64,000 nt of DNA from Arthrobacter sp. SO5 (lineage in GTDB: Bacteria > Actinomycetota > Actinomycetes > Actinomycetales > Micrococcaceae): positions 1 to 64,000 of the forward strand of contig NZ_MQTQ01000053.1 in the NCBI RefSeq assembly GCF_020532805.1, given 5' to 3'. The stretch's first letter is position 1, and each line of letters begins with the position of its first letter. The notes beneath the pieces are model-generated. The model made no database searches and was not told the origin of the DNA. It was given only the letters and a program-made list of their open reading frames with translations. Made by a program: the position numbers and the translations under genes. Below, piece by piece: positions 9,814 through 27,590 of this stretch.

Positions 9814-12558
9814 ATGTCGAGGGATTCGCTGGGCTGGGGGAATGTTTCCACTACATTGGCACCCGCCGAAGAAAAAGACTCTGCCGGGTCCGTGACGGGA
9901 CACAGGTGGTCCGTTCTGGCGCGGGCTGCCGACGCCGACCGGGTCCGGATGGCCCTGCTGGCGGATGACAGCATGGGCGTCATCATCACCGGCGACCGCG
10001 GCGTGGGCAAGTCCCTCGTGGGCCGGACCGCACTCGCGGGTTTCGGCCCCGATGTCCATACCCTCCAGCTCCGGACCTCCGGCCCCGGCACGGCCACACC
10101 ATACGGTTGCCTCGCGTTTACCCTCGCCAGGCTTCCGCAGAGTTCCCTCGGTTCGCCTACCGCCATCCTGCACGGGATTACTTCGCTGATCCGCGAAGAT
10201 GCCGCGGGACGAACGTGTGTGATCTTCCTTGACAACGCCGGCGCCCTGGATGAGCCGAGCACCGGCGTCCTGCTCAACCTGCTCCAGACCGGAACGGCCA
10301 GGCTCGTCGCCACAGCCCAGCGCACCACGGACCTGCCTCCCGACTTCTACTGGCTCCTCACGTCCGGGCAACTGGCGGAGGTCCGTCTCGCGAACCTGAC
10401 AGAGGTGGAAACCCTTGACGTGCTCCAAACGGCGCTCGGGCACCGGGTGTCCAGCGCCCTTGGAAGCCAGTTGCACCAGCTGGTCGGCGGTAGCCCCACC
10501 CTGCTGCAGGCTGTCGTCTCGGAACAGATCGAACGCGGAAACCTTGTCCTGTCCGGATCGGTGTGGACCCTCCTTGACGAGGTGGTCCTCGACGGGCGCA
10601 CCGCGCTGGAGGACATTGTCAGGGCCAGATACGCGCGGGAAAATCCGGTGGCACGGGAGGTCATCGAGGTACTCTCCTGCGCCCGAACCCTACCGCTGTC
10701 GCGGCTCGCGAGGATGTACAGCCCCGGGATCATCGCCGACATGGAGGACTCGGGCCAGATCCTCGTCGACCGGACCGAGCAGCACCTCGTCTCCCTCGGC
10801 GACCACTACCTGGGCGATATTGTCCGGAACTGGCTGAGCGTGGAGCGCCGGCTGGAGCTCAGGGACAAGGTTCCCGGCCATCTCGAACACGAGCTGGGCG
10901 AACTGACCGTTGAGGACCTGCTGGCGTATGCGGCATGGACCCACGACTGCGAAGCGCCGCTGGCGCCGCCCCATGCGCTGGCAGCGGCCAGCGCCGCCGT
11001 CAAGCTCTTTGATCCCAAGTTCGCGCTCAAGTGCGCCGGCAGCCTGCACCCCAGGGATCCTGAATGGGCCGAAGGCCAGCTGCAGAAAGCCGCCGCCTAC
11101 CTGCAGCTGGGCCTCCCGCTGCAGGCGATGTCGGCGCTCGACGATATTTCGGAACGCCAAATCCGCGACCTACCGGCCGAAGCCTTCGCTGACATCACTG
11201 CCGCGAAGGCCGACTGCATGTCATGGCTGGAGGACCGGGCAGGGAAGGTGCCCGAGCTGATCCGGCAGGCACGGATGAGGCTTCACGACTTCAGCATCAG
11301 CGAGCCCCCGGCAACACCGGACGAGCTAACCCGCGCCACGCTGTGCCTGGACCTGTGCGAATACAGCTACCTCTCCTTCATCGGTGACTACGAACCCCTG
11401 ATGGAGCGGCTCGGCGCTGCGGCGTCCGCGTCGGGGAACGGCGTCGATCCTGTGCACCGGCTCAGGTCGGCCATCATTTTGATGGAGGCCTTGTGCATGA
11501 CGGGCAAGGAGCTTGAGGCCCGGACGCTGATGCGCGAGATCGGCGGCCAGCTGAGCGAATGGTCGAACGTTCCCCGGATCCGCGAGAACTTCGCGTGGCG
11601 CTCCTTCAATGTGCTCCTGCTCTCCGGCCACTGGCGCCAGAGCATCGACATGTTGAAAGACGCCAGCGGCCGTGCGGGCCACGGTCTGCATTCCGGCAGC
11701 GCCGCCACCGACCTTGCCGTCGGACTTGCCTATGTCTACGCGGGCCGCGGCTACATGGCCCTGGACCCGCTCCTGGCTGCCATTGCCCAGTTGGAGGTCC
11801 GTTCCAGCCTGCAATCGCTGCGACAGGCCTACGCCGCCACTGCGTTCGCCTACGCCCAGACCGGAAACTCCATGCAGGCAAGCGTCTACCTTGACAGGGC
11901 ACGCTCCACGGACGTTCCGGCCCGCTTCATGATCCGTAGCTCCGCCGACTTCTGCATGGACATGGCCTCGCGCTGGCTGGGCGACCCGGAGGCGAAGGAC
12001 CGGCTGGTACGCTCGGCCGAAATGCACTTCAGGGCCGGCCGCTACACCCTGGCCGGTATCTTCATGCTCGGCGCGACGGTTAACGGCACGGCCAAGGATT
12101 TCCACTTCCTCGAAGACATCGCCACGCGGCGGCAGGGTCCACTCGCGGAATTGTCGTCCATTATTGCGATCGGCAGCCGGAAGAAGGACGCAGGGACCAT
12201 GCTGGCGGCGGCCCACCTGGCCGCGTCCCTGGAACTGGACGCCGTCCAGGCGCGCTGCGCCGCCCTTGCCTTCGACTTCGCCAAGGCAGCTGGTCTGAGC
12301 GCCAGCGCCAGCGCCGCGCATACGATGCTGGAGAGTCTCGCAGAGTCTGTTCCGGCGCTGCCGGTCATTCCGCGCAACAAGGGCCCGCTCCTGACGGACA
12401 GGGAGCGGCAGATCGCTACCCTCGCCGGAAACGGTGTGTCCAACAAGGACATTGCTCTCGAAGTGGGCATTTCAGTCAGAACAGTGGAGGGACACCTGTA
12501 CCAGGTGTTCACGAAGCTCGGAGTTTCCTCGCGAAGTGATCTGCTTGGACTCATCTAG
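9814..12558 (+). CDS. Large ATP-binding LuxR-family regulator 1 (LAL-like)
   Basis: 914-aa member of the large ATP-binding LuxR-type (STAND-like) regulators. Walker A GDRGVGKS is at 60-67 and Walker B-like CVIFLDNAG near 135-143. A long Ala/Leu-rich middle is likely to form helical (TPR-like) repeats. The last ~56 residues are a LuxR/GerE helix-turn-helix, with LTDRERQIATLAGNG and VRTVEGHLY. A WTHDCE motif in the middle corresponds to W-S-M-D-C-G in the sister proteins. GAAGGAA precedes the ATG. Its 3' end overlaps regulator 2 by about 23 bp, so the two are probably translated together. The inducer is unknown. Confidence 0.9.
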   Translation: MSRDSLGWGNVSTTLAPAEEKDSAGSVTGHRWSVLARAADADRVRMALLADDSMGVIITGDRGVGKSLVGRTALAGFGPDVHTLQLRTSGPGTATPYGCLAFTLARLPQSSLGSPTAILHGITSLIREDAAGRTCVIFLDNAGALDEPSTGVLLNLLQTGTARLVATAQRTTDLPPDFYWLLTSGQLAEVRLANLTEVETLDVLQTALGHRVSSALGSQLHQLVGGSPTLLQAVVSEQIERGNLVLSGSVWTLLDEVVLDGRTALEDIVRARYARENPVAREVIEVLSCARTLPLSRLARMYSPGIIADMEDSGQILVDRTEQHLVSLGDHYLGDIVRNWLSVERRLELRDKVPGHLEHELGELTVEDLLAYAAWTHDCEAPLAPPHALAAASAAVKLFDPKFALKCAGSLHPRDPEWAEGQLQKAAAYLQLGLPLQAMSALDDISERQIRDLPAEAFADITAAKADCMSWLEDRAGKVPELIRQARMRLHDFSISEPPATPDELTRATLCLDLCEYSYLSFIGDYEPLMERLGAAASASGNGVDPVHRLRSAIILMEALCMTGKELEARTLMREIGGQLSEWSNVPRIRENFAWRSFNVLLLSGHWRQSIDMLKDASGRAGHGLHSGSAATDLAVGLAYVYAGRGYMALDPLLAAIAQLEVRSSLQSLRQAYAATAFAYAQTGNSMQASVYLDRARSTDVPARFMIRSSADFCMDMASRWLGDPEAKDRLVRSAEMHFRAGRYTLAGIFMLGATVNGTAKDFHFLEDIATRRQGPLAELSSIIAIGSRKKDAGTMLAAAHLAASLELDAVQARCAALAFDFAKAAGLSASASAAHTMLESLAESVPALPVIPRNKGPLLTDRERQIATLAGNGVSNKDIALEVGISVRTVEGHLYQVFTKLGVSSRSDLLGLI

Positions 12559-15256
12559 GCCCCGCGCAGCCGGTCCGGGGACCGAGGTGCCCGCAGCCGC
12601 CCTGACAGGGCGGACCGATGACCTGAGGTCAGCGGTGACGGCCATCCGGGGAAGCAGCCACGTCGCCGTCATGTTGCTCGGCGACAGCGGAATCGGCAAA
12701 TCAACCCTGTTGGAGGCGGTCGTAGCCGAACTCCAGCCTGAGGTGACGCCTGTCCGGATCCACGGCAGCCCATCGTTGGCGATGGTGCCCTACGGCGTCC
12801 TCGGACCGTTTATCGTCGGGCTCCCGGTGCAGGAAGCCACCTCGCAGTTGGCGGTCCTGCGGACGTTCTGGTCCCATCTGGAGGATGAACGGCGCGCCAC
12901 CGGCCGGCCGCTCCTGCTCATAGTCGACGACGCCCATGATCTTGACGAGGCGACTGCCGGGATCCTGGTGGAACTCGCCGCGGCCGGCTGGGCGAAACTG
13001 CTCGTGGCGGCCGCGGCCCGTCCGGGCCTGCCCGAAACGCTGCTGCAGTTGTGGTTTGAAGGCATAGCGGTGCGGCTGGACCTGCGGCCGCTGACCCGGC
13101 AGCAGACCAACGAAATGCTGGAGCACGGCCTCGGCCCCCAGGTGCTGCCGAATGTCGGCGAAGTCCTCTGGGAAGCATCGGCCGGCAATCCCCTGCTGCT
13201 CAATGGCCTGATCGATGACGCGAAGCATGACGGAACCCTGCTCCAGCGAAACGGGGTGTGGCTGCTCACGCAGCCCCTGAACAGCCACGGGGACCGGCTG
13301 ACCGACGTCGTACGCCGGCAGCTGCTCCGGCGCTCGCCGGACGAGCGGCAGGCACTGAACCTTGTTGCGCTGGCGGAGCCCGTGGGGCGGGACCTGATCG
13401 AGTCCGTCGTGGGAGAGGAGGCCGTAGGGGCGCTGATCGAACACGAGCTGATCAAGGTGACGCCCTCGGCCCGGCCGGAACTGCGGCTGTGGCACTCGGT
13501 CTACGGGGATACGCTGCGGAACCTGATTTCCCCCGCACGCAGCCTCCAGCTGCGGCAGAGCCTCCTGCGGCTCATGGACGCGGAGCCGACGTCGGCCGAG
13601 GGGCTCCTGCGCCAGGTGAGCTGGTCGATGGACTGCGGCGCGGAGGTTGATGACCGGCAACTGCTCAGGGCTGCGGTCCTCGCCAGCCGCCTGTACCAGG
13701 ACGAATTGGCCCGCAAAGCCGCCGGTCGGGTCAAGGACCCCGAGCTGCAGATGGCGGCACGGTCCGTGACGGCACGCACATACTTCAACACCTCCGACTA
13801 TGAAGCGGCCCGGGACATCCTGGAGGCCGATTTCGGCAAGGGCCACAGCGTGGCGGTCCTGCTCACGGGAACCCTGATGTGGGCAGCCGTGCAGTCCGCC
13901 CTCGGCAACACGCCGGCCGTCATCATGGACCGCGCCCGAGCGCTCCTGGTCGCCGGGGAACAGCTTGCGAAAACCAATCCGGAGGACGCGGAGAGCATCC
14001 TTGCAGCGACAAGGGAACGCTACCGGACCATGCGCAGCATGGTGCTCGCCATGGCCGGGGAGTACGAGGCGGATCCGGCTGGACCTCCGTTGCCGGCGGA
14101 GGATCGCCCCCCGGCCAACCACCTTGAGGCCGCCTTCCGGCTGGCCCTTGAATCGGAACGGCTCCTCGTCCAGGGCAAGTCCGCCAGTGCTTTTGCCGCC
14201 GCGTCCGAAGCCCTGACAGCTGCCGGTGCCGGATACGACGAACTGTACTTCCTCGCAGAATTCCTGGTGGTCCGTGCTGCCGCAGCCATCATTCACAACG
14301 GCGACTGGGAGGCAGCCGAAACACTCCTGTCAGGGGTCGGCGCCAGTTCGGGACCAAGCCTGATCACCTTCGGCGGGGGAGTCCACGCGGCGCACGGCAT
14401 CATCCTGCTGTACCAGGGAAGAGCCGCCCAGTCCTTGAACACCCTCAGCGGAGCGCTGGAATCATTGCGGCTCGCGGATCCGCAGCAGCTCTTCGCGCTG
14501 ACCGCGTCGATGGCTTTCGCCGCCGCTGCGGAAATGGGCGCAACGGACAAGGCTGCGGTGTTGCTGGCGGACTACGAATCCGCTCCCCGTGCCGTCTCGC
14601 GCTACCTGCGTACGCTCTCCGAGATGGCCGTTGTCTACGGCAAAGCCCGTCTCGGCAACTACCCCGAAGCGATCTCGGAACTGCGGCAGCTCGGCCGGCC
14701 GCGCGGCGACGGGATGACCGCAGGTCTTGAATTCGACTCGCTCTCCTTCCGCCTGGCGCTCGGTGACCGGGACGCGGCGTCCCGGTTGCTTGAGCTAGAA
14801 CCCGAGCTGGAGGGCTGCAGGGCAGCGGCGCTCTGCAACTACGCCCGTGCGGTCCGCACGGACCTGGCGGCGGACCACCTGGAGGCTGCCAAGAGCTGCG
14901 AGGACGCCGAACTCTGGACTTTCGCGGCGCTGGCCTACGACGCCGCAGCGAACGCCTACCGGGCCGCCGGCGACACCCTCCGGGAACGTATGGCCATCTC
15001 GCAGCGTAAGCGCTGCCCGGACCGGGCCGACAGCATCCCCGGCAAGGGCACTGAAGTCGAGGCCGATTCGCTTGGCCTCTTGACCCGACGCGAGCGGGAC
15101 ATCGTGGCGCTTGCCGTCCGTGGCCTCAGCGACCGGCAGATCGCCGTCGAGCTCCAAGTGTCCATCAGGACTGTCGAAGGCCACCTGTACCGCAGCTACG
15201 CGAAGCTCAACGTCAAGGGCCGTGACCAGCTCCCCGGCCCGGCCGGAAGCCAGTAG
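12536..15256 (+). CDS. Large ATP-binding LuxR-family regulator 2 (LAL-like)
   Basis: Second paralogue, about 906 aa. Walker A GDSGIGKS lies near 49-56 and Walker B LLLIVDDAHDLDE is intact. WSMDCGAEVDDRQLLRAA marks the start of the helical middle. The C-terminal DNA-binding domain reads LTRRERDIVALAVRGLSDRQIAVELQ, then VSIRTVEGHLY. The start is uncertain: GTG at 12536 (used here, with GGAG 12 bases upstream) or TTG at 12545; longer versions would overlap regulator 1 much further. Overlap with the previous gene implies translational coupling. The proteins are clearly related but diverged, so the duplication is old. Confidence 0.88.
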   Translation: MICLDSSRPRAAGPGTEVPAAALTGRTDDLRSAVTAIRGSSHVAVMLLGDSGIGKSTLLEAVVAELQPEVTPVRIHGSPSLAMVPYGVLGPFIVGLPVQEATSQLAVLRTFWSHLEDERRATGRPLLLIVDDAHDLDEATAGILVELAAAGWAKLLVAAAARPGLPETLLQLWFEGIAVRLDLRPLTRQQTNEMLEHGLGPQVLPNVGEVLWEASAGNPLLLNGLIDDAKHDGTLLQRNGVWLLTQPLNSHGDRLTDVVRRQLLRRSPDERQALNLVALAEPVGRDLIESVVGEEAVGALIEHELIKVTPSARPELRLWHSVYGDTLRNLISPARSLQLRQSLLRLMDAEPTSAEGLLRQVSWSMDCGAEVDDRQLLRAAVLASRLYQDELARKAAGRVKDPELQMAARSVTARTYFNTSDYEAARDILEADFGKGHSVAVLLTGTLMWAAVQSALGNTPAVIMDRARALLVAGEQLAKTNPEDAESILAATRERYRTMRSMVLAMAGEYEADPAGPPLPAEDRPPANHLEAAFRLALESERLLVQGKSASAFAAASEALTAAGAGYDELYFLAEFLVVRAAAAIIHNGDWEAAETLLSGVGASSGPSLITFGGGVHAAHGIILLYQGRAAQSLNTLSGALESLRLADPQQLFALTASMAFAAAAEMGATDKAAVLLADYESAPRAVSRYLRTLSEMAVVYGKARLGNYPEAISELRQLGRPRGDGMTAGLEFDSLSFRLALGDRDAASRLLELEPELEGCRAAALCNYARAVRTDLAADHLEAAKSCEDAELWTFAALAYDAAANAYRAAGDTLRERMAISQRKRCPDRADSIPGKGTEVEADSLGLLTRRERDIVALAVRGLSDRQIAVELQVSIRTVEGHLYRSYAKLNVKGRDQLPGPAGSQ

Positions 15257-15370
15257 CTCCCCTTCGGGAGTGCCGGGCCGGCCGCGGGACGACGGCCGCA
15301 TTGGAGTGCCAGCGGGCAGCCGGCGCCGCGGCTGACCGCTCCCCGCGGGGCCACTCGGAGTATTTCCCGG

Positions 15371-15463
15371 ACTACTTGGTTTGGCCGCTCAAGCCGGCAG
15401 GCCCATCTGAGTACAGCCACGTATACCCCGACCAAGTACCCGCTCAGGATTCGAGTACTACTT
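15371..15463 (+). promoter_or_regulatory. Cluster of CTACTY/RAGTAG boxes upstream of regulator 3
   Basis: The 282-bp gap before regulator 3 holds no gene. It is unusually rich in TACTT/TACTC and their complements: ACTACTTGG (15371-15379), GAGTAC (15409), CCAAGTACC (15432-15440) and overlapping GAGTAC/TACTACTT (15453-15463). ACTACTTGG recurs exactly, inverted, at 21270-21278. Weak promoter elements TTGCCC (15479) and TATCAC (15502) lie downstream at 17-bp spacing. AAGGTCTCA precedes the ATG, as it does at 21376. The regulatory role is inferred. Confidence 0.45.
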
Positions 15464-15538
15464 ACGCATCCCGAAATGTTGCCCAGTCCATAGCTTGGAG
15501 TTATCACTGGTCTACCATTGATTGCGAAGGTCTCACTC

Positions 15539-18286
15539 ATGTTTCAGCACGACGTCGGCCTGCCTGCGGGCAGCGGCAAAACAGATGCGATTTCACCAGC
15601 ACAGCGCTTCTCACAGGGGCGCTACGACAAACCCTTCACCCGCCACCAGATTGTTTCTGACGTGATCGACACGCTGACCTCTGGCTCCGGCTGCGGGGTG
15701 GTACTTGTGGGGGAACACGGGGCTGGAAAGTCCTTCATCGCCCAACGCGCCCTCGAGCAGCTTGGCGAGGACTATGTCGTGGTCCAGGTCCGCGGCAGCT
15801 CGATTTCCTCAAAACTTCCCTACGGCGCCCTGAGCGTTCTGCTGAACGATCTCGACGCTTCCCACCTCGAACACCCGCTCATGGTGCTGCGGGGCCTCAC
15901 CCAGCTCCTCCACACGAAGGCCCAGGGACGAAGCATCGTGCTCTTCGTGGACAATGCCCACGATCTGGACGAACTCTCCAGCATGATGGTGGCGCAGCTC
16001 AGCGCCGGCGCGCACGTCACCCTGCTGGCAGCGTGCGTGGACCTGCCTCATGTGGGCGGGGACATCATGGGGCTCTGGAAGGACGACCTGCTCCGGCGCG
16101 TTGACCTCGGCCCGTTCGATTTCACGGAGACATCAGCGACACTCAGCAATGAATACGGCGGCCGGTTCTCCCTCACGGCGGCACGCGCCCTCTGGAATGC
16201 GAGCGGCGGAAACGCACTCTTCCTCCACTCCCTGGCCCGGGAACAGATCAAGATCGGCAGGGTCGTCCGCCAGGACGGTACCTGGATCCTGGGTAATGGC
16301 CCGATTGCCCTGACCGGCGAGATCCGCGACGTCGTGAAGGCCCGCCTCAACAAGCTCAGCTCGGGCCAGCGGGATGTCTTCGAGCTCTTGGCCCTTGCCG
16401 GCGCGGTCCCCTTGCAGATGCTCATGAGCGTCGCCAATCCCCAGGACATGGATGCCCTCCAGGAGCGGGCCATGATCCATGTCAGCCATGACCACCCGCC
16501 CATGGTGAGTGTCGCCAACCAGGTGACCGCAGGAATCGTCGCCAGCGTCGTGCCACCGGGCAGGAGCGCGGAACTCCGGCGCCGGCTCAAGGCGGTGCTC
16601 GAGGACTCGGACCAGGCGGAGTTCGGGGGTTCAACCGGCGTCGCCTGGGCTCTGGACTGCGGTGAGCAGGTCAGTCCGAACGTGGCCCTTGCCGCAGCCC
16701 ACACGGCGAATGACTCATCCGATCCGGTGGCCGCATTGCGGTTCCTGCACGAGATCCAGGGCCGCGAATCGATTCCGGGGGTGGCCGTGGAATCGGTGCA
16801 TGCCCACATTTCGGTCAACAACGACGAGTCCGCACGCCGGGTCCTCGCCTCGCTGGATCACCTCGCCGGCTCGGATTTTTCACTCGCTGAATGGACCTCG
16901 CTGCAGTTGCTCCGAACCGAGTTGGACAAGCGCAGCGCCGTCTCGGCGGTCAACGCGCGGGCCACGCTGCAGACCATCGCACAAAGGCTTTCGGAGGAAT
17001 GCGATGCATCCGATGTCCACGGGTCCGACGCAGCGGCAGCCCGTGAGCACCTCCGCATCGCCGAAATCGACCTCGCTGTCTTCGAGGGCCGATACGCCGA
17101 TGCCTTGACAATGACCGAGGACACCGATGCCGGGGAACTCGGCACCGAATCGCGAATCCTCTCCGCCAGCCTGCGCTGCGAGGCCATGGCGGTCACCGGG
17201 AATATCGTCGGCGCCCTGGACCTCGGCGGCCAGGTCGTGGCCGCCGCCTCCGCCGTTCAGCTCTCGGACCGGGCCATGCGGGAAATCAGGGGCCGGTTCC
17301 TGATCCTGATGCTGCTCTCGGCCAAGTTCCGGGAAATGTCGCTGTTCCTGTCGGAGTCCTACGCGACTGCAGACCCGCAGGCCCGGCTCGGCGGGATGTT
17401 CGAGATCTGCCAGGGAGTGATCGATGTCCATGCGGGTCTCCTCGACGAGGCGCTGCCCCGTCTCCGGGCCGGGATGGGGCAGCTTCGGACACAGGACCCC
17501 GATGCCGTGGCGGCCCTTGCCGTGGCGGCCTGCGCCTATGCCGCGGCCCTTCATGGTGACGAGGAGCAAGCCAGTCTCCTGCTCGCCGAGCTGGCGCAGC
17601 TGCGTACGCCGTGCTCGTGGCTGGTGGGCCGCGTGACGCGCTATTTCGAGCTGTGCGCTCTAGCCGAACTCGGCCAGCGGGCACTGGCGATCCGCTCGCT
17701 CGTCGCAGAAGCGGACAACGATACCGAGGTGTCGGCCCTGGCGCCGGCCCTCTTGTTCCTGTCGGCGGCGGCACGGCTCGGCGACCGCCAGGTCGGCCTG
17801 AAGCTGGGCACGCTGTCCGGGCGCGTGTCCGGGCAGTTCGCGAGTCAATGCTCGCGGCTGGCGGAGGGCGTGAAGGACACCGACAGCGACCAGCTGCTGG
17901 CTGCCTCCAAGGATTCCGATGCCGCAGGCAACGCTGTTTTCGCCAGGGACGCGGCCCGCAAAGCCGTCAGCTTCGCCAACGACGCCGGAAACCGGATCGC
18001 CTTGCGGATCGCCCAGCGGGCACAGCAGTCCCTCGACGACAGGTTTGGCAGCCCCAAGAACGGTCTGCACTCGCTCACGACCTCAACCCTGACAGCCAGG
18101 GAATGCGAGGTGGCCGTCAGGGCCGCTGCCGGAACCTCCAACCGCAAGATCGCGGAACAGATGCATGTTTCGGTCCGCACGGTTGAGGGCCACCTTTATC
18201 AGGTGTACTCGAAGCTGCATGTGGCCAGCAGATCGGAACTCAAGGATGTCATCTCCACACCGACTGAAAGTGCCCGCTTGGGCTGA
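15539..18286 (+). CDS. Large ATP-binding LuxR-family regulator 3 (LAL-like)
   Basis: Third paralogue, 915 aa from ATG 15539, which has GAAGG 8 bases upstream; an in-frame TTG at 15518 is less likely. Walker A GEHGAGKS is at 58-65, Walker B SIVLFVDNAHDLDE is intact, and WALDCGEQVSPN marks the middle. The C-terminal helix-turn-helix reads LTARECEVAVRAAAGTSNRK, then VSVRTVEGHLYQVYSKLHV. It starts a new transcription unit after the 282-bp box-rich gap, and regulator 4 follows after 59 bp. It probably responds to a ligand or partner bound by the helical middle; none can be named. Confidence 0.9.
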   Translation: MFQHDVGLPAGSGKTDAISPAQRFSQGRYDKPFTRHQIVSDVIDTLTSGSGCGVVLVGEHGAGKSFIAQRALEQLGEDYVVVQVRGSSISSKLPYGALSVLLNDLDASHLEHPLMVLRGLTQLLHTKAQGRSIVLFVDNAHDLDELSSMMVAQLSAGAHVTLLAACVDLPHVGGDIMGLWKDDLLRRVDLGPFDFTETSATLSNEYGGRFSLTAARALWNASGGNALFLHSLAREQIKIGRVVRQDGTWILGNGPIALTGEIRDVVKARLNKLSSGQRDVFELLALAGAVPLQMLMSVANPQDMDALQERAMIHVSHDHPPMVSVANQVTAGIVASVVPPGRSAELRRRLKAVLEDSDQAEFGGSTGVAWALDCGEQVSPNVALAAAHTANDSSDPVAALRFLHEIQGRESIPGVAVESVHAHISVNNDESARRVLASLDHLAGSDFSLAEWTSLQLLRTELDKRSAVSAVNARATLQTIAQRLSEECDASDVHGSDAAAAREHLRIAEIDLAVFEGRYADALTMTEDTDAGELGTESRILSASLRCEAMAVTGNIVGALDLGGQVVAAASAVQLSDRAMREIRGRFLILMLLSAKFREMSLFLSESYATADPQARLGGMFEICQGVIDVHAGLLDEALPRLRAGMGQLRTQDPDAVAALAVAACAYAAALHGDEEQASLLLAELAQLRTPCSWLVGRVTRYFELCALAELGQRALAIRSLVAEADNDTEVSALAPALLFLSAAARLGDRQVGLKLGTLSGRVSGQFASQCSRLAEGVKDTDSDQLLAASKDSDAAGNAVFARDAARKAVSFANDAGNRIALRIAQRAQQSLDDRFGSPKNGLHSLTTSTLTARECEVAVRAAAGTSNRKIAEQMHVSVRTVEGHLYQVYSKLHVASRSELKDVISTPTESARLG

Positions 18287-18345
18287 GCCCGGGCAATCCC
18301 TCTCGACTCCGCGGCCGCAGCCGAGTGCCGGGGAAGGAACCGGGG

Positions 18346-21093
18346 ATGGAAAGCCTCGCTGAGACCGCCCCTCTGATAGGGCGGTCCGGCTTGGTCAGGG
18401 ACGTTGTGCGCTGCCTCCGCGACGACGGCCGGTCCGGTGCGCTGATCGTCGGAAGCGCGGGGACCGGCAAGACCGCCGTATCGAAAGCTGTCGTCCGGGA
18501 GCTCCGGCCCCGGGGAAAAGTGATCCGGCTGACGGCCACACGGGCGCTGGCCGCGGTCCCGTTCGGAGCCCTGGCCCCCTATCTGGCGGAGCTGCCCGAT
18601 CATGAGCTGGACTCCTACGCCTCCGTCCTGGCGGCAATGACAGGAAGCCTGAAGTCAGAGGCCAGCCGGCCTCTATTTGTCATCGACGACGCCCACAGCC
18701 TCGACCGGGGAACCATCCAGCTGCTCGCACGGGCAGTCGCCACTGGCGCGGCGGGAATCCTCGCCACCAGCAGGCCGGGCCCCATGATCCCCGAGGAATT
18801 CCTGGCCCTATGGGACGACGGGATCCTCTCAAAATTCGACGTGTCCCCGCTGACCAGGACAGGCGTCCACCAGCTTTGCGAACAGCACCTGAGGGGCGAC
18901 GTCTCGCCGTGGGCCAGCGCCGTCTTTTTCACCGTAACCGAGGGCAACCCGCTGATGCTCGTGTCCCTCATCGAACACGCCCGGGCAAGTGGTGCCCTTG
19001 AACGGCGGAACGGTGTGTGGTTCCTGCTGAGGAACCCGGACCTCGCCGAGGTGCCGGCCGCCGACGTCGTGGACCAGCAGTTGCATCTCATGACCCAGGA
19101 GGAGAGGACCGCCGCCATGATCGTGGCACTTGCCGGGCCCCTCTCGCTGGGCCAGATTCTCAAAGTCAGCAGTCCTAGGGCCGTCGACGCGCTCGAAACC
19201 GCCGGGATCATCAGCGTTTCGCCCGGGCATGACCGCATCGTCCGCCCCGCCAGCGCGTTGCTGGCCGAGATCATCCGCCGCCGCGTTCCCGCAGGACAGA
19301 GCGCGGCCCTGCGGTCAAGCGTGCTGGTGCTTCCCTCGGCGCATCCCCTCCGCCCGGATGCCTTCTTGAACCAGGTCCGCTGGTCCATGGACTGCGGGGC
19401 GGACGTCCCGGCCGTGCAGCTGATTCACGCCGCCATGCTGGCCAACACAGATCTTGACCCGGTCACAGCAATAACGACCGCCAGCGCCGTGCGGGACGAG
19501 CGTTTCCTTCCGGACGCGCGGATCCAGCTTGCCTATGCCGCGTTCGTCCTGGACCGCCCGGAGGCGGCAGCCGGATACCTTCTGGCTGCCGTTCCCCTGC
19601 GGTACGGCCGAATGTCCTATCTCGCCGCGATGCTCGCTGCGCGTCTGCCCACGACCACGAAGCTTGCCCCGGCCCTGCTTGAGTCGACGAGAATTCCCGC
19701 TGTGCAAGCTTCAGCGCAGGGCAGCGCGGCGGCTGCCCTCGCGGACTCCGCGGGCGCGCCCCCGGACACGCTCGCAGACGATGCCCGCTGGAGGCAGTCG
19801 CCCGCGGCGGCCATGGCAGCGGACCTTTTGACTGGTACCAGCGGCAACCGGTATTTCGACGTCGAAGCGGGGTTGCAGGAGGTCATGGCAGCGGCTGAAG
19901 CAAATCCGGAAATCCGGCTTCCGGCCGCCTCTCTGCTAGCCGAGCTCTGGACGTCCCAGGGCCGACTCCGGGAAGGACTGCGCCTGGGTGGTGACGCGTG
20001 GAACGGCTTGGCCGGCGCCGGCCTCACTATCCCGCTGGCCCACGAAGACATGCTGCTGCGCCACGGCCTGAACCTCATCCGGGCCCGGGAATGGGAGGAG
20101 CTCGCAGAGGTCCTGGACCGCTACGCCGCCGACCACCCAGGCCGTCTCCTCCACAGCGGCGGGATGCTCAACGTCCTCCAGGGATTCTCCCGGTTGAGTC
20201 AGGGCCGGATATCCGAAAGCCTGGCCGAAGTTCAGCTCGGCGTGCAGCAGCTCACCATCTCCGATCCCTTGCACCTGCTGGCTTTCGCGCACGCCGTCGC
20301 AGCCTATGCTGCGGCGCTGCTCGGCCGCCCCGACGAGGCCCGCGAGCACGCGAGCGCGTACCGCGCCGCGGCCGACGGCGAACCGAAGACTCACCGGCTA
20401 CTTGCCGAGGCCTACTGCCGGACGGCCGAGCTGCTGACGGTCCCGGTCAGCGGCCGGGGGAAGGTCCGGCCGGGCCACCCTGACAGACCCGCCACCGGCA
20501 GTCCGCGCGGCCTCGATGAACTGGCGGACGAGGCGCGCCGGCAGGGGCTGCGGGGTGTGGAAACGGACATCAGAAGACTCCTCCTCCGCAGCGGCGACAC
20601 CGGGAGCGCGCAGGCACTGGCCCTGAGCAGCGGCGCCGTTGACGGGTCAGAGGCGCGGCTCCTGGAGGCCTTCGCCCATGCGGTATCCGCAGGCGACGCG
20701 GCAGGACTCATCGGCATCAGCGACCAGGCGCAGGCGGCAGGCCACACGCTGCTGGCCCTGGAAGCCGCGCAGCAGGCCGCGTGGTGCCTCGAACGCAACC
20801 CGGACCGGTGGAAGCTGACGGCGGTCCAGCGCCGCGTCCACCATCGCATGGTGGAGGCGGGAATGTCGGCGAACACGGACGTTGTGCGCACCGAGTACGG
20901 TACGGAGCTGACCGGACGGGAAGCGGAAGTCCTGGAGCTCGTCGCCGGGGGAGCCACTAACGCCGAGGTGGCCGCTGTGCTCTGCGTATCCCAACGGACG
21001 GTCGAAGGTCATCTCTACCGCATCTTTGCCAAGCTCGGTGTCACCCGTCGCGCGGAACTCCTGGACACGGGCCGGGACGCTCCGTCGTTCTGA
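18346..21093 (+). CDS. Large ATP-binding LuxR-family regulator 4 (LAL-like)
   Basis: Fourth paralogue, 915 aa. ATG 18346 has GGAAGGA 7 bases upstream and is preferred over GTG 18325. Walker A GSAGTGKT is at 36-43, Walker B PLFVIDDAHSLDRG is intact, and WSMDCGADVPAVQLIHAA marks the middle. The C-terminal domain reads LTGREAEVLELVAGGATNAE, then SQRTVEGHLYRIFAKLGV. The recognition helices of all four proteins share RTVEGHLY, so their operators could be similar. It is the last regulator before the polysaccharide operon and lies on the same strand. Confidence 0.9.
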   Translation: MESLAETAPLIGRSGLVRDVVRCLRDDGRSGALIVGSAGTGKTAVSKAVVRELRPRGKVIRLTATRALAAVPFGALAPYLAELPDHELDSYASVLAAMTGSLKSEASRPLFVIDDAHSLDRGTIQLLARAVATGAAGILATSRPGPMIPEEFLALWDDGILSKFDVSPLTRTGVHQLCEQHLRGDVSPWASAVFFTVTEGNPLMLVSLIEHARASGALERRNGVWFLLRNPDLAEVPAADVVDQQLHLMTQEERTAAMIVALAGPLSLGQILKVSSPRAVDALETAGIISVSPGHDRIVRPASALLAEIIRRRVPAGQSAALRSSVLVLPSAHPLRPDAFLNQVRWSMDCGADVPAVQLIHAAMLANTDLDPVTAITTASAVRDERFLPDARIQLAYAAFVLDRPEAAAGYLLAAVPLRYGRMSYLAAMLAARLPTTTKLAPALLESTRIPAVQASAQGSAAAALADSAGAPPDTLADDARWRQSPAAAMAADLLTGTSGNRYFDVEAGLQEVMAAAEANPEIRLPAASLLAELWTSQGRLREGLRLGGDAWNGLAGAGLTIPLAHEDMLLRHGLNLIRAREWEELAEVLDRYAADHPGRLLHSGGMLNVLQGFSRLSQGRISESLAEVQLGVQQLTISDPLHLLAFAHAVAAYAAALLGRPDEAREHASAYRAAADGEPKTHRLLAEAYCRTAELLTVPVSGRGKVRPGHPDRPATGSPRGLDELADEARRQGLRGVETDIRRLLLRSGDTGSAQALALSSGAVDGSEARLLEAFAHAVSAGDAAGLIGISDQAQAAGHTLLALEAAQQAAWCLERNPDRWKLTAVQRRVHHRMVEAGMSANTDVVRTEYGTELTGREAEVLELVAGGATNAEVAAVLCVSQRTVEGHLYRIFAKLGVTRRAELLDTGRDAPSF

Positions 21094-21231: not shown

Positions 21232-21319
21232 TACTACTCGGGTGGTCCGCTGAGAGTCCGGGAGTACCTCCAAGTAGTGCTACCCCAGAGGCCGCTAAGG
21301 AAGTCGGGTAAACGCTACT
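21232..21319 (+). promoter_or_regulatory. CTACTY box cluster upstream of the polysaccharide operon
   Basis: The 293-bp gap after regulator 4 contains TACTACTC (21232-21239), GGGAGTACC (21260), CCAAGTAGT (21270-21278, the exact complement of ACTACTTGG at 15371) and ACGCTACTC (21312-21320, matching 9754). GTCGGG occurs shortly before ACGCTACT both here and upstream of regulator 1. The same motif vocabulary in three intergenic regions suggests common control by one or more of the adjacent LuxR-type proteins. This is inference. Confidence 0.45.
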
Positions 21320-21386
21320 CGTGCGCTGATTGGGCGCTGGCGATTCACTTAAGTCAGTCCTACGAACAACTCACAAAGGTCTCAAA

Positions 21387-21686
21387 ATGAGTAACTTCAG
21401 GGCGGTGATCGGCCGCGGGCAGCACCAGCACAAGAGCATGGAAACGTACTATCTCTTCACTGCTGAGGATGCCCGGTCCACCTGCGAAGGTGGTCGCGCC
21501 GGTACCTCCCTGTTCCGAACTCCTTCATTGGATTCGCGCAGTGCCTTCGCCGGCAACTGCGCGCCAAGGTCGGAGCCGGCGGCGTCAGAGCCTTCTGAGA
21601 CCGAGGCTCTCCCCCCAGCCGCCGCCGGCTCCCTTCAATCGTCCGCACACTGGCCCGCTCCACTGAAAGAGGTGGAACGGGCATGA
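21387..21686 (+). CDS. Small hypothetical protein coupled to the sugar transferase
   Basis: 99-aa ORF from ATG 21387, with AAAGG about 7 bases upstream inside AAGGTCTCA, the same string that precedes regulator 3. Its stop overlaps the next start as ATGA (21683-21686), which suggests real translation and coupling. The product begins MSNFRAVIGRGQHQHKSMET and has no signal peptide, membrane segment or recognisable domain; the second half is Ser/Ala/Pro/Glu-rich. It may be a genuine small protein or a leader whose translation gates the operon. Confidence 0.5.
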   Translation: MSNFRAVIGRGQHQHKSMETYYLFTAEDARSTCEGGRAGTSLFRTPSLDSRSAFAGNCAPRSEPAASEPSETEALPPAAAGSLQSSAHWPAPLKEVERA

Positions 21687-23257
21687 GCGCCGTCGACGAG
21701 TACCGCCCCGGGTACCGCACCAAAGGCAGCCGGTGGCTCCGCCGCCCCGCCCGTGCCCTGGTTGCCCTCACCGGGCCGCTGGATCAGCCCTGGGCCCTCG
21801 AGAATGAAGTCCCCGCCGCTGGTGTGGATTCAGGGAAATCGTGGGCCAGGCGTTACCGTCGCTGGCTGCGGTTCACGGACATCGCGATCATGCTGCTGGC
21901 CGTGACGGCCGCCTACACCGTGCGCTTCGAAGCCGGCGAGGCCCTTTTCGCGAAGTCAGCCTCCGGCAGCCCGTATCTTGCGGTGAGCGGGGTCATCCTG
22001 CTGGCCTGGATTCTCGCGCTGGAAGTCCACCGGACCCGCGACGAGACGGTCCTTGGCATCGGCTCAGAGGAATACAAGCGGGTAGTGGACGCGACTCTGG
22101 GTGCCTTCGGCGCCATTGCCGTCCTCTTCCTGGTCCTGGACATCAACGTCGTCCGTGGCTACTTCGCCCTGGCCCTGCCGGCCGGCGCCCTGCTGCTGCT
22201 GGTGAACCGGTGGCAATGGCGGGCATGGCTGAACCGCCAGCGCCACTTCGGCCACTACCTCTCGAAGGTGATTGTCGTTGGCGAACCCGGCGACGTCGAA
22301 TACGTAGTCCGGCAGTTGGGCAAGGTTTCAGGGGCGGCCTATGAAGTCGTGGGGGCGGCGCTCCCTGCCGGATACACGCAGACCCACCTCCAGATTTCAG
22401 CTACCCGGGTCCCGGTGCTGTGCGACGTCGAGTCCGTGGCCGGGAAAGTGGCAGAAACAGGAGCTAACGCGGTGGTCGTGGCGGGGCGGCTGGAGGGCGG
22501 CACACGATCCATCCGGCAGTTGAGTTGGGCCCTGGAAGGCACCCACACCGGGCTCGTTCTCGCATCGAGCCTGACTGACGTGGCCGGCCCGCGGATCCAC
22601 TGGCGGCCGGTGGAGGGCCTGCCCCTCATGCACGTGGAACTGCCCCAGTTCAGCGGCGTCAAGCACACGCTTAAGCGCCTCGTGGACATCGTGGCCTCGG
22701 GCGCCGCACTCCTGCTCCTCTCGCCCCTGCTCGGCGTCCTCGCCTGGGTGATTGTCCGGGACAGCAAGGGTCCGGTGTTCTTTCGCCAGGAGCGGGTCGG
22801 CCGGAACGGCGAACGGTTCCATATGGTCAAGTTCCGTTCGATGGTCCAGACGGCCGAAGAAGAGCTGGCGGACCTCAAAGAGCTCAACGAAGGCGCCGGA
22901 CTGCTGTTCAAAATGAAGAATGATCCCCGGGTCACGAAGTGCGGGCACTGGCTCCGGAAGTACTCACTCGACGAGCTGCCGCAGTTCTGGAATGTCCTGA
23001 AAGGCGATATGAGCCTGGTGGGGCCGCGGCCCCAGCTGCCGGGAGAAGTGGAGGGATACGACGGCGACGTCGGCCGGCGGCTTCTGATCAAACCGGGCAT
23101 CACCGGTCTGTGGCAGGTCAACGGACGATCAAATCTTGGCTGGGAAGAGAGCGTCCGCTGGGACCTCTATTACGTGGAGAACTGGTCGCTGACCGGAGAC
23201 ATCATGATTCTGTGGCGAACCCTCAAAGTCATCCTGCATCCGGTGGGGGCATATTGA
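21683..23257 (+). CDS. Polyprenyl-phosphate sugar phosphotransferase (WbaP/WcaJ-type)
   Basis: Initiates glycan assembly by moving a sugar-1-phosphate from a nucleotide sugar onto the lipid carrier at the cytoplasmic membrane. The N-terminus has about four to five membrane helices (from about residue 65), then a nucleotide-binding-like domain. The C-terminal bacterial sugar transferase domain shows FRQERVGRNGERFHMVKFRS, ELPQFWNVLKGDMSLVGPRP and KPGITGLWQVNGRS. At 524 aa it matches the family. It is the first committed enzyme of the operon; the sugar substrate cannot be read from sequence. Confidence 0.93.
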   Translation: MSAVDEYRPGYRTKGSRWLRRPARALVALTGPLDQPWALENEVPAAGVDSGKSWARRYRRWLRFTDIAIMLLAVTAAYTVRFEAGEALFAKSASGSPYLAVSGVILLAWILALEVHRTRDETVLGIGSEEYKRVVDATLGAFGAIAVLFLVLDINVVRGYFALALPAGALLLLVNRWQWRAWLNRQRHFGHYLSKVIVVGEPGDVEYVVRQLGKVSGAAYEVVGAALPAGYTQTHLQISATRVPVLCDVESVAGKVAETGANAVVVAGRLEGGTRSIRQLSWALEGTHTGLVLASSLTDVAGPRIHWRPVEGLPLMHVELPQFSGVKHTLKRLVDIVASGAALLLLSPLLGVLAWVIVRDSKGPVFFRQERVGRNGERFHMVKFRSMVQTAEEELADLKELNEGAGLLFKMKNDPRVTKCGHWLRKYSLDELPQFWNVLKGDMSLVGPRPQLPGEVEGYDGDVGRRLLIKPGITGLWQVNGRSNLGWEESVRWDLYYVENWSLTGDIMILWRTLKVILHPVGAY

Positions 23258-23297: not shown

Positions 23298-23759
23298 ATG
23301 GGTCTCAAAATTGGATATGCACCAGGGGCGTTCGATCTATTTCACATCGGACACCTCAATATCCTTAAGCATGCCAGAAGCCAATGCGACTACCTGATTG
23401 CGGGAGTCGTATCAGACGAAATGCTGGAGCGGGCCAAGGGCAGATTGCCTTTGGTCCCTTTGGCCGAGCGGATGGAGATCGTCGGCAGCATCGGCTACGT
23501 CGACAAGGTCTACGCCGAGCTTCTGCCGGACAAGCTGCAGGTCTGGGAGGAACTGCGGTTCAACATGTTTTTCAAGGGCGATGACTGGAAGGGAACTCCG
23601 CAAGGCGACCGCCTGGAAAGCGCCTTTAACGCAGTAGGCGTCGAGGTCGTCTTCTTTCCCTACACCGTCCACACTTCCAGCACGGCCTTGCGGACCGCTC
23701 TCGAACTCATCAACCAGGCGCCGGAATCGGCTCACCGCCGGCAGGGGGCACGGAGATGA
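23298..23759 (+). CDS. Cytidylyltransferase-like protein (TagD/glycerol-3-phosphate cytidylyltransferase type)
   Basis: Small nucleotidyltransferase of the HIGH superfamily, 153 aa. FDLFHIGHLNILKHA carries the catalytic HxGH motif; FFKGDDWKG resembles the corresponding region of TagD, and the closing HTSSTALRT replaces the usual RTxGISTT. It plausibly activates a phosphorylated alcohol as its CDP derivative. It overlaps the next gene by 4 bp (ATGA). With the CDP-alcohol phosphotransferase two genes on, it suggests a CDP-alcohol branch in glycan synthesis. Substrate identity is inference. Confidence 0.85.
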   Translation: MGLKIGYAPGAFDLFHIGHLNILKHARSQCDYLIAGVVSDEMLERAKGRLPLVPLAERMEIVGSIGYVDKVYAELLPDKLQVWEELRFNMFFKGDDWKGTPQGDRLESAFNAVGVEVVFFPYTVHTSSTALRTALELINQAPESAHRRQGARR

Positions 23760-24934
23760 GCGGGCTACACATCGCCATGGTGGGGACGCGCGGTGTTCCC
23801 GCGCGTTATGGCGGATTCGAAACCGCCATCGAGGAAATCGGGCAACGGCTCGTCCAGCGCGGCAACCGCGTGACGGTGTACTGCCGTGATCTGGTCGGGG
23901 GGGCCTCGGACAAACCGTCACAGCACCTCGGGATGGATCTCGTCCACCTCGGGGCCATGCGCAAGCGCTCGCTGGAAACGTTGAGCCACACCGGACTCTC
24001 CGTTGCCCACATGCTCCGGCACCGGCCGGATGCGGCGATTGTGTTTAACGCAGCCAACGCGCCCTATCTCCCGGTGATCCGGGCGGCAGGCATCCCGGTG
24101 GCCACTCACGTTGACGGCCTCGAATGGAAGCGCGCCAAATGGGGCAGGGCTGGCCGGAACTACTACCAGTTGGTGGAGCGGCTCGCGGTCAAGTGGTCCG
24201 ACTCCCTGATCGCCGACGCCGCCGGAATCCAGGACTACTACCGGCAGAAGTTCGATGCCGAGACGGTCTACCTGGCTTATGGGGCTCCGCTGCTGGCCAA
24301 GGGTCCGGCCGACAAACTCGCACAGCTTGGCCTGAAGCCCCAGGGCTACCATCTCGTCGTGGCCCGTTTCGAGCCCGAAAACCACGTCCACCTCATCGTC
24401 GAAGGATTCGCCCAAAGCGCGGCACGTCTTCCGCTCGTCGTCGTGGGTTCGGCGCCCTATTCGGACCGCTATACCAACCTCGTGCACGGACTCGGAGACG
24501 CAAGGGTGCACTTTGTGGGCGGCGTGTGGGACCAGGAACTGCTGGACCAGCTCTACTCGAACGCCCTGGTGTACTGGCACGGCCACTCCGTCGGGGGCAC
24601 GAACCCCTCCCTCCTGCGGGCCATCGGCTCCGGTACCGCCACCAACGCCTACGACGTCGATTTCAACCGTGAAGTCCTCGAGGAGTCCGGTCGCTACTTC
24701 ACCCGCCCCGAGGACGTGGCACGGCTCGTCGCGGAAGCGGAAGGCCCCGATTCGGATGTGTCGGTCCGGGGCGGGCAGGCGCAGCGCCTCGCGGCCCGCT
24801 TCAACTGGGACCTGGTCGCGGACGGCTACCAGCAGCTCTGCCTGGAGCTTGCCGGGTCCCGGGCCCGCGCCCCCCGCAATGTCCCGCGGTCCTTCTCCGA
24901 GGCCCCGCAACAGAGTCTGGGGGCCGGGCAATGA
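23756..24934 (+). CDS. Glycosyltransferase (DUF1972/GT4-like, rhamnosyltransferase-type)
   Basis: 392-aa cytoplasmic glycosyltransferase. The N-terminus GTRGVPARYGGFETAIEEIG is characteristic of DUF1972 glycosyltransferases, several of which are deoxyhexosyl- or rhamnosyl-transferases in capsule clusters. The C-terminal GT-B half contains YHLVVARFEPENHVHLIVEG and HSVGGTNPSLLRAIGSG. Four-base overlaps with both neighbours (ATGA at 23756 and 24931) show tight translational coupling. The probable role is adding an early sugar to the lipid-linked primer. Confidence 0.9.
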   Translation: MSGLHIAMVGTRGVPARYGGFETAIEEIGQRLVQRGNRVTVYCRDLVGGASDKPSQHLGMDLVHLGAMRKRSLETLSHTGLSVAHMLRHRPDAAIVFNAANAPYLPVIRAAGIPVATHVDGLEWKRAKWGRAGRNYYQLVERLAVKWSDSLIADAAGIQDYYRQKFDAETVYLAYGAPLLAKGPADKLAQLGLKPQGYHLVVARFEPENHVHLIVEGFAQSAARLPLVVVGSAPYSDRYTNLVHGLGDARVHFVGGVWDQELLDQLYSNALVYWHGHSVGGTNPSLLRAIGSGTATNAYDVDFNREVLEESGRYFTRPEDVARLVAEAEGPDSDVSVRGGQAQRLAARFNWDLVADGYQQLCLELAGSRARAPRNVPRSFSEAPQQSLGAGQ

Positions 24935-25788
24935 CCGCCATCGATCCCGGACTCGGCGCCGCCGGCAGCACCGCAACCGCTGGCTACTGGGCCACCGTCA
25001 AGGAATTGGCCGCAGCCCAAAAGACGGCCGCGCGCGGAGCACCCGCCTACTCGCGCTACGTCAATCGCCGGCTGGGCCGACTGCTGGCGGCAGTTGCCCT
25101 TCGCGCCGGACTCGGCCCAAACGCCATCACCGCGCTCAGCGCGGTGTTCACCTTCACCGGGATCGCGCTGCTGGTGCTCTTTCCACCCTCGGGTGGACTG
25201 GGCGTCGGGGTGGCCCTTTGCCTGATTGTGGGATACGCCCTGGACTCGGCGGACGGACAGGTCGCCCGAATGCAGGGCAGCGGATCACCTGCCGGGGAAT
25301 GGCTGGATCACATGGTCGACGCCGTCAAAACTTCGCTCATGCCGCTGGCGCTCGCCGTCGGACTGTACCGTTTCGGCGCGGTCGACACGTGGTGGCTCCT
25401 CGTACCCCTGGGGGCCGCCGTCGTGTCTGCGGTGCTGTTCTTCAGCATGATCCTCACGGAGCAGCTGCGGCGCCAGGCTGGCCGCAGCTCGGTGGCCAGC
25501 ACGGCCGGACGGTCGTGGGTCCGGTCGGTGCTCGTCGTTCCGATGGACTACGGCATCCTGTGCCTTTCCTTCGCCTTCTACGGCATGCTGCCGCTGTTTG
25601 TGGTCATCTACACGTTGATCTTCGCCGCCACGGCAGCATTCCTCGTCCTGGCGTCGATCAAGTGGTTCCGTGAACTCTCCACCGTCCAGCCTGCCTCGAC
25701 GCCAGCCGGCAAGCACCGCCAGCACGAACCGGTGGCAGTAACGGCCGCAGCAGCAAGCAATACCCTTGGAACTGGAGTCCCGCGATGA
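24931..25788 (+). CDS. CDP-alcohol phosphatidyltransferase family membrane protein
   Basis: 285-aa integral membrane enzyme. The family signature D-x2-DG-x2-AR-x8-G-x3-D-x3-D is complete in DSADGQVARMQGSGSPAGEW followed by LDHMVDAV. About six hydrophobic segments follow. The family transfers a phospho-alcohol from a CDP-linked donor to a hydroxyl acceptor. Coupling to a TagD-like cytidylyltransferase and glycosyltransferases suggests a phosphodiester-linked substituent or lipid anchor on the glycan rather than ordinary phospholipid synthesis. The acceptor is unknown. Confidence 0.88.
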   Translation: MTAIDPGLGAAGSTATAGYWATVKELAAAQKTAARGAPAYSRYVNRRLGRLLAAVALRAGLGPNAITALSAVFTFTGIALLVLFPPSGGLGVGVALCLIVGYALDSADGQVARMQGSGSPAGEWLDHMVDAVKTSLMPLALAVGLYRFGAVDTWWLLVPLGAAVVSAVLFFSMILTEQLRRQAGRSSVASTAGRSWVRSVLVVPMDYGILCLSFAFYGMLPLFVVIYTLIFAATAAFLVLASIKWFRELSTVQPASTPAGKHRQHEPVAVTAAAASNTLGTGVPR

Positions 25789-26573: not shown

Positions 26574-26664
26574 CTGCCGGCGCTGCAAGGTTGTCCGCAG
26601 AAAAACCACAGGAAGAAGTCCGCCAGGAAGCAGTCCGCAGGAACCGACAGGAAGGAATCAGGCC

Positions 26665-27579: not shown

Positions 27580-27590
27580 AAGGGAAAAAA

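Follow-up and report, generated by a model that had tools for sequence, protein, structure and literature searches.

Paired LAL regulators and a structured leader RNA: a candidate two-layer switch at polysaccharide loci of the Micrococcaceae

Background

Why would a bacterium keep four large regulators of one kind in a row in front of a set of polysaccharide genes, and through what element could these regulators act? The question is raised by a stretch of 64,000 nucleotides (nt) of Arthrobacter sp. SO5 (assembly GCF_020532805.1, contig NZ_MQTQ01000053.1, positions 1 to 64,000; the whole stretch is hereafter called the window), in which four consecutive genes (LAL1 to LAL4, 9814-21093, all on the + strand) encode regulators of the LAL/STAND-LuxR kind. 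The large ATP-binding LuxR regulators (LALs) are about 800-1100 amino acids (aa) long and combine N-terminal Walker A/B motifs with a C-terminal LuxR helix-turn-helix (HTH); the window genes show this size, these motifs and this HTH, and as a type of regulator there is nothing unusual about them. A first interpretation that was made from the letters of the window (the sequence-only reading) had put the array directly upstream of the glycan genes. The position is right, but the 589 nt between LAL4 and the first of these genes, wbaP, hold a dyad, a leader open reading frame (ORF) and a hairpin, and this block (21305-21686) had been overlooked.

As judged from sequence comparison, the most constant partner of the LAL array is a structured leader RNA with an operator of its own, in many cases accompanied by a coupled ORF. 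Most likely, the LAL regulators control polysaccharide operons via this leader, and we consider it fairly probable that the Micrococcaceae possess a two-layer switch, in which pairs of LAL proteins activate an exopolysaccharide (EPS) leader that is coupled by translation, gated by an RNA and subject to feedback between the hairpin loop and a complementary box.

A structured RNA and a candidate operator precede wbaP

The hairpin (21572..21632, +) lies inside the leader ORF and comprises a 13-bp outer stem, an inner stem and a C-rich internal loop. Its loop GAGACC (21597..21602, +) is invariant in 29 of 29 alignment rows, and fold and alignment both leave a C6 tract (21611..21616, +) unpaired. 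The stretch that holds the hairpin folds at -41.9 kcal/mol (z -4.43), with a GC-rich stem. The element was recovered from all 37 genomes of the genus set (36 relatives and the window's own genome), and three of these (G012, G020 and G022; G and L numbers are our handles for genomes and stretches) have a weak copy right behind LAL4 and a strong copy 5-8 kb behind it. Changes on both sides were found in 8 of the 19 pairs in the genus set and in 14 of the 18 pairs in a cross-genus set of 29 sequences; in the latter 98.6% of the cells were paired (at most 61.5% when slid) and the covariation score was 0.366 (at most 0.172 when slid). Four of the five measures exceeded every shuffle in both sets, and the compensatory changes mark the element as a structured RNA. 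The hairpin was considered as a coding element as well, which was rejected: 15 of the 37 genus genomes lack a start codon in the open frame-0 stretch through the loop, and in G012, G020 and G022 the frame that crosses the hairpin is a different one while its structure is kept.

A search of the window against Rfam 15 returned tRNA only and no family for the hairpin, and the region 21094-21690 gave a single match, to sX12, at 23 bits versus a gathering score of 106. A covariance model of the element, built from 55 sequences, matched in 147 of 295 Micrococcaceae genomes and 17 of 32 genera, with up to five matches per genome (the individual copies discussed below are among the matches listed). 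An order-wide scan with strict filters, which lose weak matches, was positive in 22 of 396 genomes, all Micrococcaceae, and phages gave no match. These data point to an RNA family that is absent from Rfam 15 and leads into polysaccharide operons of the Micrococcaceae.

Upstream of the hairpin, in the promoter of the EPS leader, stands the dyad CGGGTAAACGCTACTCGTG (21305..21323, +), followed by a -10-like hexamer TTCACT (21344..21349, +), 22 nt after TACTCG; by eye, this fixed spacing of 22 nt recurs in many genus leaders. The dyad GAGTA-N5-TACTCGTG precedes the hairpin loop by 162-312 nt, with 0-3 mismatches, in 37 of 37 genus genomes. When up to 2 mismatches are allowed it is present in 36 of the 37 genus leaders (0.00 expected from first-order resampling) and in 10 of the 26 leaders that come from other genera or belong to unlinked copies (0.07 expected). 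A variant of the operator, CGAGTACTACTTACGCA, lies 5' of LAL3 (15452..15468, +), and by eye the motif GAGTA-N5-TAC is found at the matching position in all 12 printed LAL3-type promoters, and because of this the second pair, LAL3-LAL4, is probably under the same control as the EPS leader. The occurrence of dyads of the same kind before both the EPS leader and LAL3 adds support to the link between LALs and polysaccharide genes that the sequence-only reading had proposed. In the window's own genome, the sole exact match to CRAGTAN5TACTCGTG lies on another contig, 66 nt before a third hairpin copy that the RNA model had found before the operator scan was made; two further sites match with one mismatch, namely the window's leader promoter and a site on C18 (L176) without a hairpin. 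For a little-studied kind of regulator, there is in this way a specific candidate for the operator and a target that recurs.

The hairpin might also be a binding site for a protein, either as a DNA palindrome or as RNA, rather than a device for base pairing. Its loop and C-tract are conserved beyond the needs of folding, as such a site would be; yet the genus element lies downstream of the operator and on the same strand, and the complement of the loop is enriched before LAL3-type starts (see below), and we regard this explanation as unlikely.

A leader ORF that overlaps the next gene

The leader ORF (21387..21686, +; 99 codons) runs through the hairpin, and its TGA overlaps the ATG of wbaP as ATGA. 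Such leaders were tallied only for hairpins that have, at most 300 nt 5' of them, a GGTCTC with an ATG or GTG behind it; the 35 printed cases were reduced to 30 unique ones by dropping the second hairpin of L157 and the rows L212, L219, L241 and L260, which represent the same genomes as G014, G036, L172 and G019. In 22 of these 30 the leader ORF ends in an ATGA or GTGA that also contains the start codon of the next ORF, one of at least 130 codons. The leaders without this overlap are G010, G014, G032 and G036, which have no intact EPS gene right behind, G020, where the overlap is with a 27-codon ORF, L164, which is fused in frame to a wbaP-like ORF, and L169 and L258. Three leaders (G012, G022 and L235) retain the stop/start overlap with an ORF that passes the hairpin in another frame, and for the part of the ORF that is 5' of the hairpin the nonsynonymous (dN) and synonymous (dS) rates are alike (6 pairs from 4 genus genomes), with no sign of selection on the peptide. 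Since the overlap survives a change of frame while dN and dS are alike, selection seems to target the translation of the leader and not its peptide, which makes this a case where the act of leader translation appears to be what is maintained. With respect to the genes behind the leader, Bac_transf was found in 8 of 8 wbaP candidates tested and Polysacc_deac_1 in G012. A second locus in G024 has, by eye, kept the leader ORF and the ATGA and has no match to the RNA model.

Leader-ORF attenuators and translationally coupled genes typically have a short upstream ORF, an overlapping stop and start, and a hairpin, and the window leader shares all three. It differs from them in that the hairpin is inside the ORF, the peptide before it is not conserved, and the hairpin loop complements the initiation region of the ORF itself.

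Such a hairpin could be a conditional terminator of transcription: ribosomes that read the leader would melt the stem and let the polymerase proceed to wbaP, and on an untranslated leader the polymerase would stop. The 13-bp GC-rich stem and its fold z of -4.43, the T-runs that follow the stem in some copies (L156, L163, L167), and a frame that is open through the stem though the peptide is not conserved are all consistent with termination, whereas the T-runs are weak in the window and in many copies, and neither the invariant loop nor the C6 tract is needed for it. We take termination to be quite possible, with slightly less than an even chance.

The array consists of two A-B units

LAL1 (9814..12558, +; 914 aa, ATG start) and LAL2 (12536..15256, +; 906 aa from GTG 12536, with the frame open further 5' to GTG 12434) overlap by 23 nt. 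LAL3 (15539..18286, +; 915 aa from ATG 15539, a better start than TTG 15518, which gives 922 aa) and LAL4 (18346..21093, +; 915 aa from ATG 18346, or 922 aa from GTG 18325) are separated by 59 bp, as counted from ATG 18346. This arrangement in two pairs agrees with what the sequence-only reading had described, and so does its account of four intact consecutive genes with shared motifs: the four ORFs span 906-922 aa, have an intact Walker A motif (GDRGVGKS, GDSGIGKS, GEHGAGKS and GSAGTGKT, in the order LAL1 to LAL4) and share, without variation, the W-x-x-D-C residues and RTVEGHLY. The Pfam domain GerE scored over its cut-off in all four and AAA_16 in three (LAL1: 27.5 bits versus a cut-off of 32.6).

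The same reading had spoken of four diverged copies. The genes are indeed diverged, but a single A-B unit present twice describes them better. In BLASTP, LAL1 and LAL3 (28% identity over 884 columns) and LAL2 and LAL4 (30% over 934 columns) align along their length, and LAL1 and LAL2 align in two pieces only (27% over the N-terminal 373 columns and 54% over 54 HTH columns). A maximum-likelihood tree of 83 LAL proteins drawn from 13 genome sets and 17 contexts (quick method, SH-aLRT support; midpoint-rooted for drawing only) is split with a support of 99 into an A side, to which LAL1 and LAL3 belong (43 rows), and a B side, to which LAL2 and LAL4 belong (40 rows). LAL1 and LAL3 can accordingly be designated A-type regulators (A1, A2) and LAL2 and LAL4 B-type regulators (B1, B2), an assignment that rests on ORF, Pfam and tree. 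The supports for the groups are 100 (LAL1), 97 (LAL3), 94 (LAL2) and 94 (LAL4), and each group includes members from other genera. Because the tree separates LAL1 and LAL3 from LAL2 and LAL4, the array is to be seen, on this phylogenetic evidence, as one A-B unit that was duplicated as a unit, and we infer that the duplication is older than the divergence of these genera. As A- and B-type genes travel and duplicate as a pair, a joint action of the two proteins is favoured, and the question why LAL regulators come as A-B pairs becomes a testable one. Larger arrays with the order A,A,B occur in L156 and L171. G041, which belongs to another family, has an A-B pair with one gene on each side of the tree, on long branches, and a wbaP-like gene too, yet it gave no hit of the hairpin RNA model.

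The fold was predicted for LAL2 (AlphaFold2 with a 36-row alignment; mean pLDDT 87.1, pTM 0.82). The two best Foldseek matches of this model were the TPR-STAND protein 6mfv (E 2.7e-8) and MalT 8bob (E 3.1e-6), with a poor superposition over the whole length (TMq 0.17 and 0.19, respectively). In the VIA list, TPR chains of APC/C came first (Z 18.8), for residues 322-832, and CED-4, Apaf-1, NLRs and MalT (8bob, Z 12.8) were among the entries for the N-terminal part. The LAL2 model, the only one made, shows the NOD and the helical repeat sensor part of a STAND/MalT-like protein. The predicted fold fits an activation that is driven by ligand and ATP as in MalT (PMC10427625) and a control of the envelope that is cued by a sugar as in IniR (PMC5760070). 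With the MalT-type STAND activators (E. coli MalT; PMC10427625) the LALs have in common the NOD ATPase, the helical sensor and the C-terminal LuxR HTH; unlike MalT, they come as A-B pairs and their proposed target is a coupled RNA leader. IniR of mycobacteria is, according to its abstract, an actinobacterial STAND protein that regulates a cell-envelope operon in response to a sugar, trehalose, and the likeness to the LALs lies in this class and this type of target, whereas the abstract shows neither a pair nor an RNA leader (PMC5760070). The LALs are no IniR equivalogs by NF038181 (LAL1 42.8 and LAL2 31.0 bits versus a cut-off of 750; LAL3 and LAL4 are not listed), and they are no AbsR2 equivalogs either: the AbsR2 LuxR family NF050132 was the best NCBIfam match of all four, at 76.2-120.5 bits versus a cut-off of 850.

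Hairpin, LAL genes and polysaccharide genes across genomes

LAL genes are present in 17 of 20 fetched contexts of other hairpin copies (some contexts share one genome), and in 12 printed contexts a wbaP-like ORF is no farther than about 90 nt from the element. A scan of named records, for which the figures rest on 80 (L196-L275) of 117 stretches, covers Arthrobacter, Pseudarthrobacter and Sinomonas records and one record each of Streptomyces and Sporosarcina. In this set, 42 of the 66 elements of type I have the C-terminus of a LAL within 1.3 kb upstream; the 61 that have at least 1250 nt of upstream sequence or a LAL in sight include 38 with the operator within 2 mismatches and 9 with the wbaP N-terminal pattern downstream. 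The pattern match in Streptomyces olivoreticuli (L215) was taken as chance and has no match to the RNA model. The record of Sporosarcina beigongshangi REN13 (L258) holds an Arthrobacter-like module that resembles that of A. cryoconiti (L241), perhaps a contamination.

Within the genus, LAL1 and LAL2 occur in all 37 genomes (broken in G030) and the second pair, LAL3 and LAL4, in 11. A sufS-like gene (41756 in the window) is found downstream of the LALs in 34 of the 37 fetched regions, whose lengths vary, and in 29 of the 37 genomes it follows them without an intervening EPS gene; a third LAL-like gene stands in between in 4 of those 29, and two of them (G004 and G018) have EPS-type genes just past the sufS-like gene. 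The wbaP of the window (21683..23257, +), a polyprenyl glycosylphosphotransferase (TIGR03025, 404.5 bits versus a cut-off of 295.55), has a local homologue in 5 of the 37 genomes (G000, G005, G019, G031 and, partially, G032). It is followed by a polysaccharide island (23298..41599; no strand assigned) with a tagD-like gene, GT4s, a CDP-alcohol transferase, a PKD protein, a GT2, wzx, a wzz/ATPase and a weak wzy-like match. Most genomes of the genus lack EPS genes behind the hairpin, so that there the operator-hairpin unit stands by itself.

The array could be imagined to control unlinked functions, with an EPS island that simply happened to insert at a variable site between pth and mfd. The 29 of 37 genomes without an EPS gene before the sufS-like gene and the variation of EPS content at this spot between strains speak for this, and the arrays of these genomes largely match what the sequence-only reading had named as evidence against its own proposal, homologous arrays without nearby polysaccharide genes, so that a genus-wide linkage to EPS genes is not upheld. 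Beyond the genus, however, A-B pairs stand directly upstream of wbaP-type genes and occur together with operator and wbaP, and a truncated A-B/operator/wbaP module is found on a plasmid as well, which bears out the polysaccharide link itself and leaves control of unlinked functions quite improbable. The plasmid module (NZ_CP013201.1, plasmid pRK01 of Arthrobacter alpinus; L320) consists of a LAL C-terminus, an operator-like site, a GGTCTC-ATG leader ORF, the hairpin and a cut wbaP-like start.

Complementarity between the hairpin loop and a box at starts

The loop GAGACC is the exact complement of a GGUCUC box, and this box occurs before the start of the leader ORF (GGTCTC, 21378..21383, +) and 4 nt before the ATG of LAL3 (15529..15534, +). 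The computed energy of the duplex GGUCUCA:UGAGACC is -12.3 kcal/mol. The box precedes the start in 23 of 43 LAL3-type ORFs compared with 15 of 949 other ORFs of at least 400 codons, counts that are tempered by repeated genomes (L212 = G014 and L260 = G019 among the 23), by shadow ORFs among the 949 controls and by the relatedness, hence dependence, of the genomes. The other LAL classes have it rarely (LAL1 2 of 55, LAL2 1 of 79, LAL4 1 of 29), and among the leaders GGTCTC is present in 29 of 63. Taken further, these observations raise the tentative idea, to which we would give distinctly less than an even chance, of a family-wide loop-box code by which, within one cell, EPS leaders driven by LALs would be tied post-transcriptionally to orphan short RNAs and to LAL3-type genes; if so, the hairpin would be at once a gate in cis for the ribosome and a riboregulator in trans that feeds back on its own regulators.

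In an alternative explanation, the hairpin would be, or would yield, a trans-acting small RNA: the LAL proteins would switch on short transcripts that base-pair, via the loop and the C6 tract, with other mRNAs at their GGUCUC box or Shine-Dalgarno region, and the EPS leader would be one host of the module. Operator-hairpin units without an EPS gene behind them, the 15 of 37 genus genomes without a start codon in frame through the loop, the own-genome C28 copy with its exact operator and short leader, the second-type (type II) copies, which in L104 lie beside a BrkB-family gene, and the box before LAL3-type starts all agree with a small RNA. The other genera mostly have the element at most about 90 nt from wbaP and within a coupled leader ORF, a position typical of an element that acts in cis, and between the end of the C28 copy and the putative start that follows there are (by eye) only about 65 nt; on balance we find this explanation rather doubtful.

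Proposed mechanism

In the two-layer switch that we prefer, the A- and B-type LAL/STAND proteins would be made as a pair and would bind the candidate dyad just upstream of the -10 box; once bound, presumably upon sensing a ligand, the pair would activate transcription in the manner of MalT, with the EPS leader and the LAL3-LAL4 copy itself as targets. The transcript would open with the leader ORF, and a ribosome would read through the strong hairpin up to the wbaP start at ATGA, by which, we propose, translation of wbaP would be coupled to that of the leader. When the hairpin is left unread, its loop GAGACC would be free to base-pair with the GGUCUC box in front of the leader ORF and damp initiation there, and the same loop would pair with the box before LAL3-type starts and damp their initiation; a damping effect is the sign that we would expect. 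In related Micrococcaceae, A-B units are often followed directly by a promoter and a folded RNA that leads into a surface-sugar operon, and this combination suggests that the making of the bacterial coat is switched in two steps. The pair structure, the operator, the hairpin covariation, the ORF overlap and the loop-box complementarity with its enrichment are computed results; that LALs bind this dyad and activate, the direction of the RNA effect and the ligand are inferred.

Several results weigh against this scheme. As to the RNA, the number of pair types in the genus set is not above that of the shuffles (14 versus a mean of 14.8; 500 of 500 shuffles reach 14), while in the cross-genus set it was reached by 8 of 500, and the T-runs after the stem vary between copies. 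As to the operator, 16 of the 26 leaders of other genera or unlinked copies have no dyad within 2 mismatches, and the own genome has fewer matches with up to 2 mismatches than the control (21 versus 48), just as a scan of it for half-sites at fixed spacing gave 6 sites versus 7 control matches; in this genome weight is given to exact and one-mismatch matches only. As to linkage, 24 of the 66 type I elements have no LAL close by (5 of them have less than 1250 nt of upstream sequence), nor has any of the 14 type II elements (11 with enough upstream sequence, and these 11 have no LAL, operator or wbaP pattern at all). As to the box, GGTCTC followed by ATG is found in only 21 of 63 leaders, 19 of the 37 genus leaders lack any GGTCTC, and covariation cannot test the pairing because loop and box are both invariant. 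An unrestricted count of hexamers before ATG ranked GGTCTC 56 of 2704; this count was set aside as swamped by homologous coding repeats, and the gene-class comparison given above was used instead.

A cis-acting RNA in an exopolysaccharide operon is known from Bacillus subtilis, namely EAR, the eps-associated RNA (PMC7858274); in contrast to EAR as described there, the window element is part of a leader ORF that precedes the operon's first gene, and it matches no Rfam family. A search of the mostly open literature found no publication, among the matches listed, on the hairpin RNA or on LAL pairs with EPS in Arthrobacter.

Further copies and minor observations

In G030 (L076) LAL1 and LAL2 are both broken, by decay or by sequencing error, and two TGA codons fall within the match to the second LAL gene in G035 and G026, where an ORF of 862 aa nevertheless remains.

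Some copies of the hairpin (L167 744-810 and 6748-6816, and L068-L071) lie just before a LAL gene instead of a glycan gene, and because of these the RNA may lead into regulator genes as well. Hairpins of type II were seen in genus genomes at L104 8327-8397 (-), L105-L114 and L116-L121, preceded by a strongly conserved stretch GACTAGGCAGG...GGAGGAAAAT. The L104 locus adjoins the BrkB-family gene mentioned above (Pfam, L104 only), and an Rfam search of it gave three matches, all far below the cut-offs; the type II hairpin may be a separate small RNA.

Three other places in the own genome deserve mention. A hairpin copy without a clear operator (C78:13813-13888; L152) comes after three direct repeats of GATTTGAAGTGGC. 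The unit at C28:64679-64832 (L153/L175) is short and consists of the exact operator, a -10-like box and a diverged hairpin; its neighbours are, by eye, the end of a GH32-type gene and menC. Finally, a half operator with a spaced -10-like box (C67:39539-39572, -; L317) precedes the gene for a secreted protein of 335 aa, which has no Pfam match and looks phosphoesterase-like by eye, and this gene is a possible further target.

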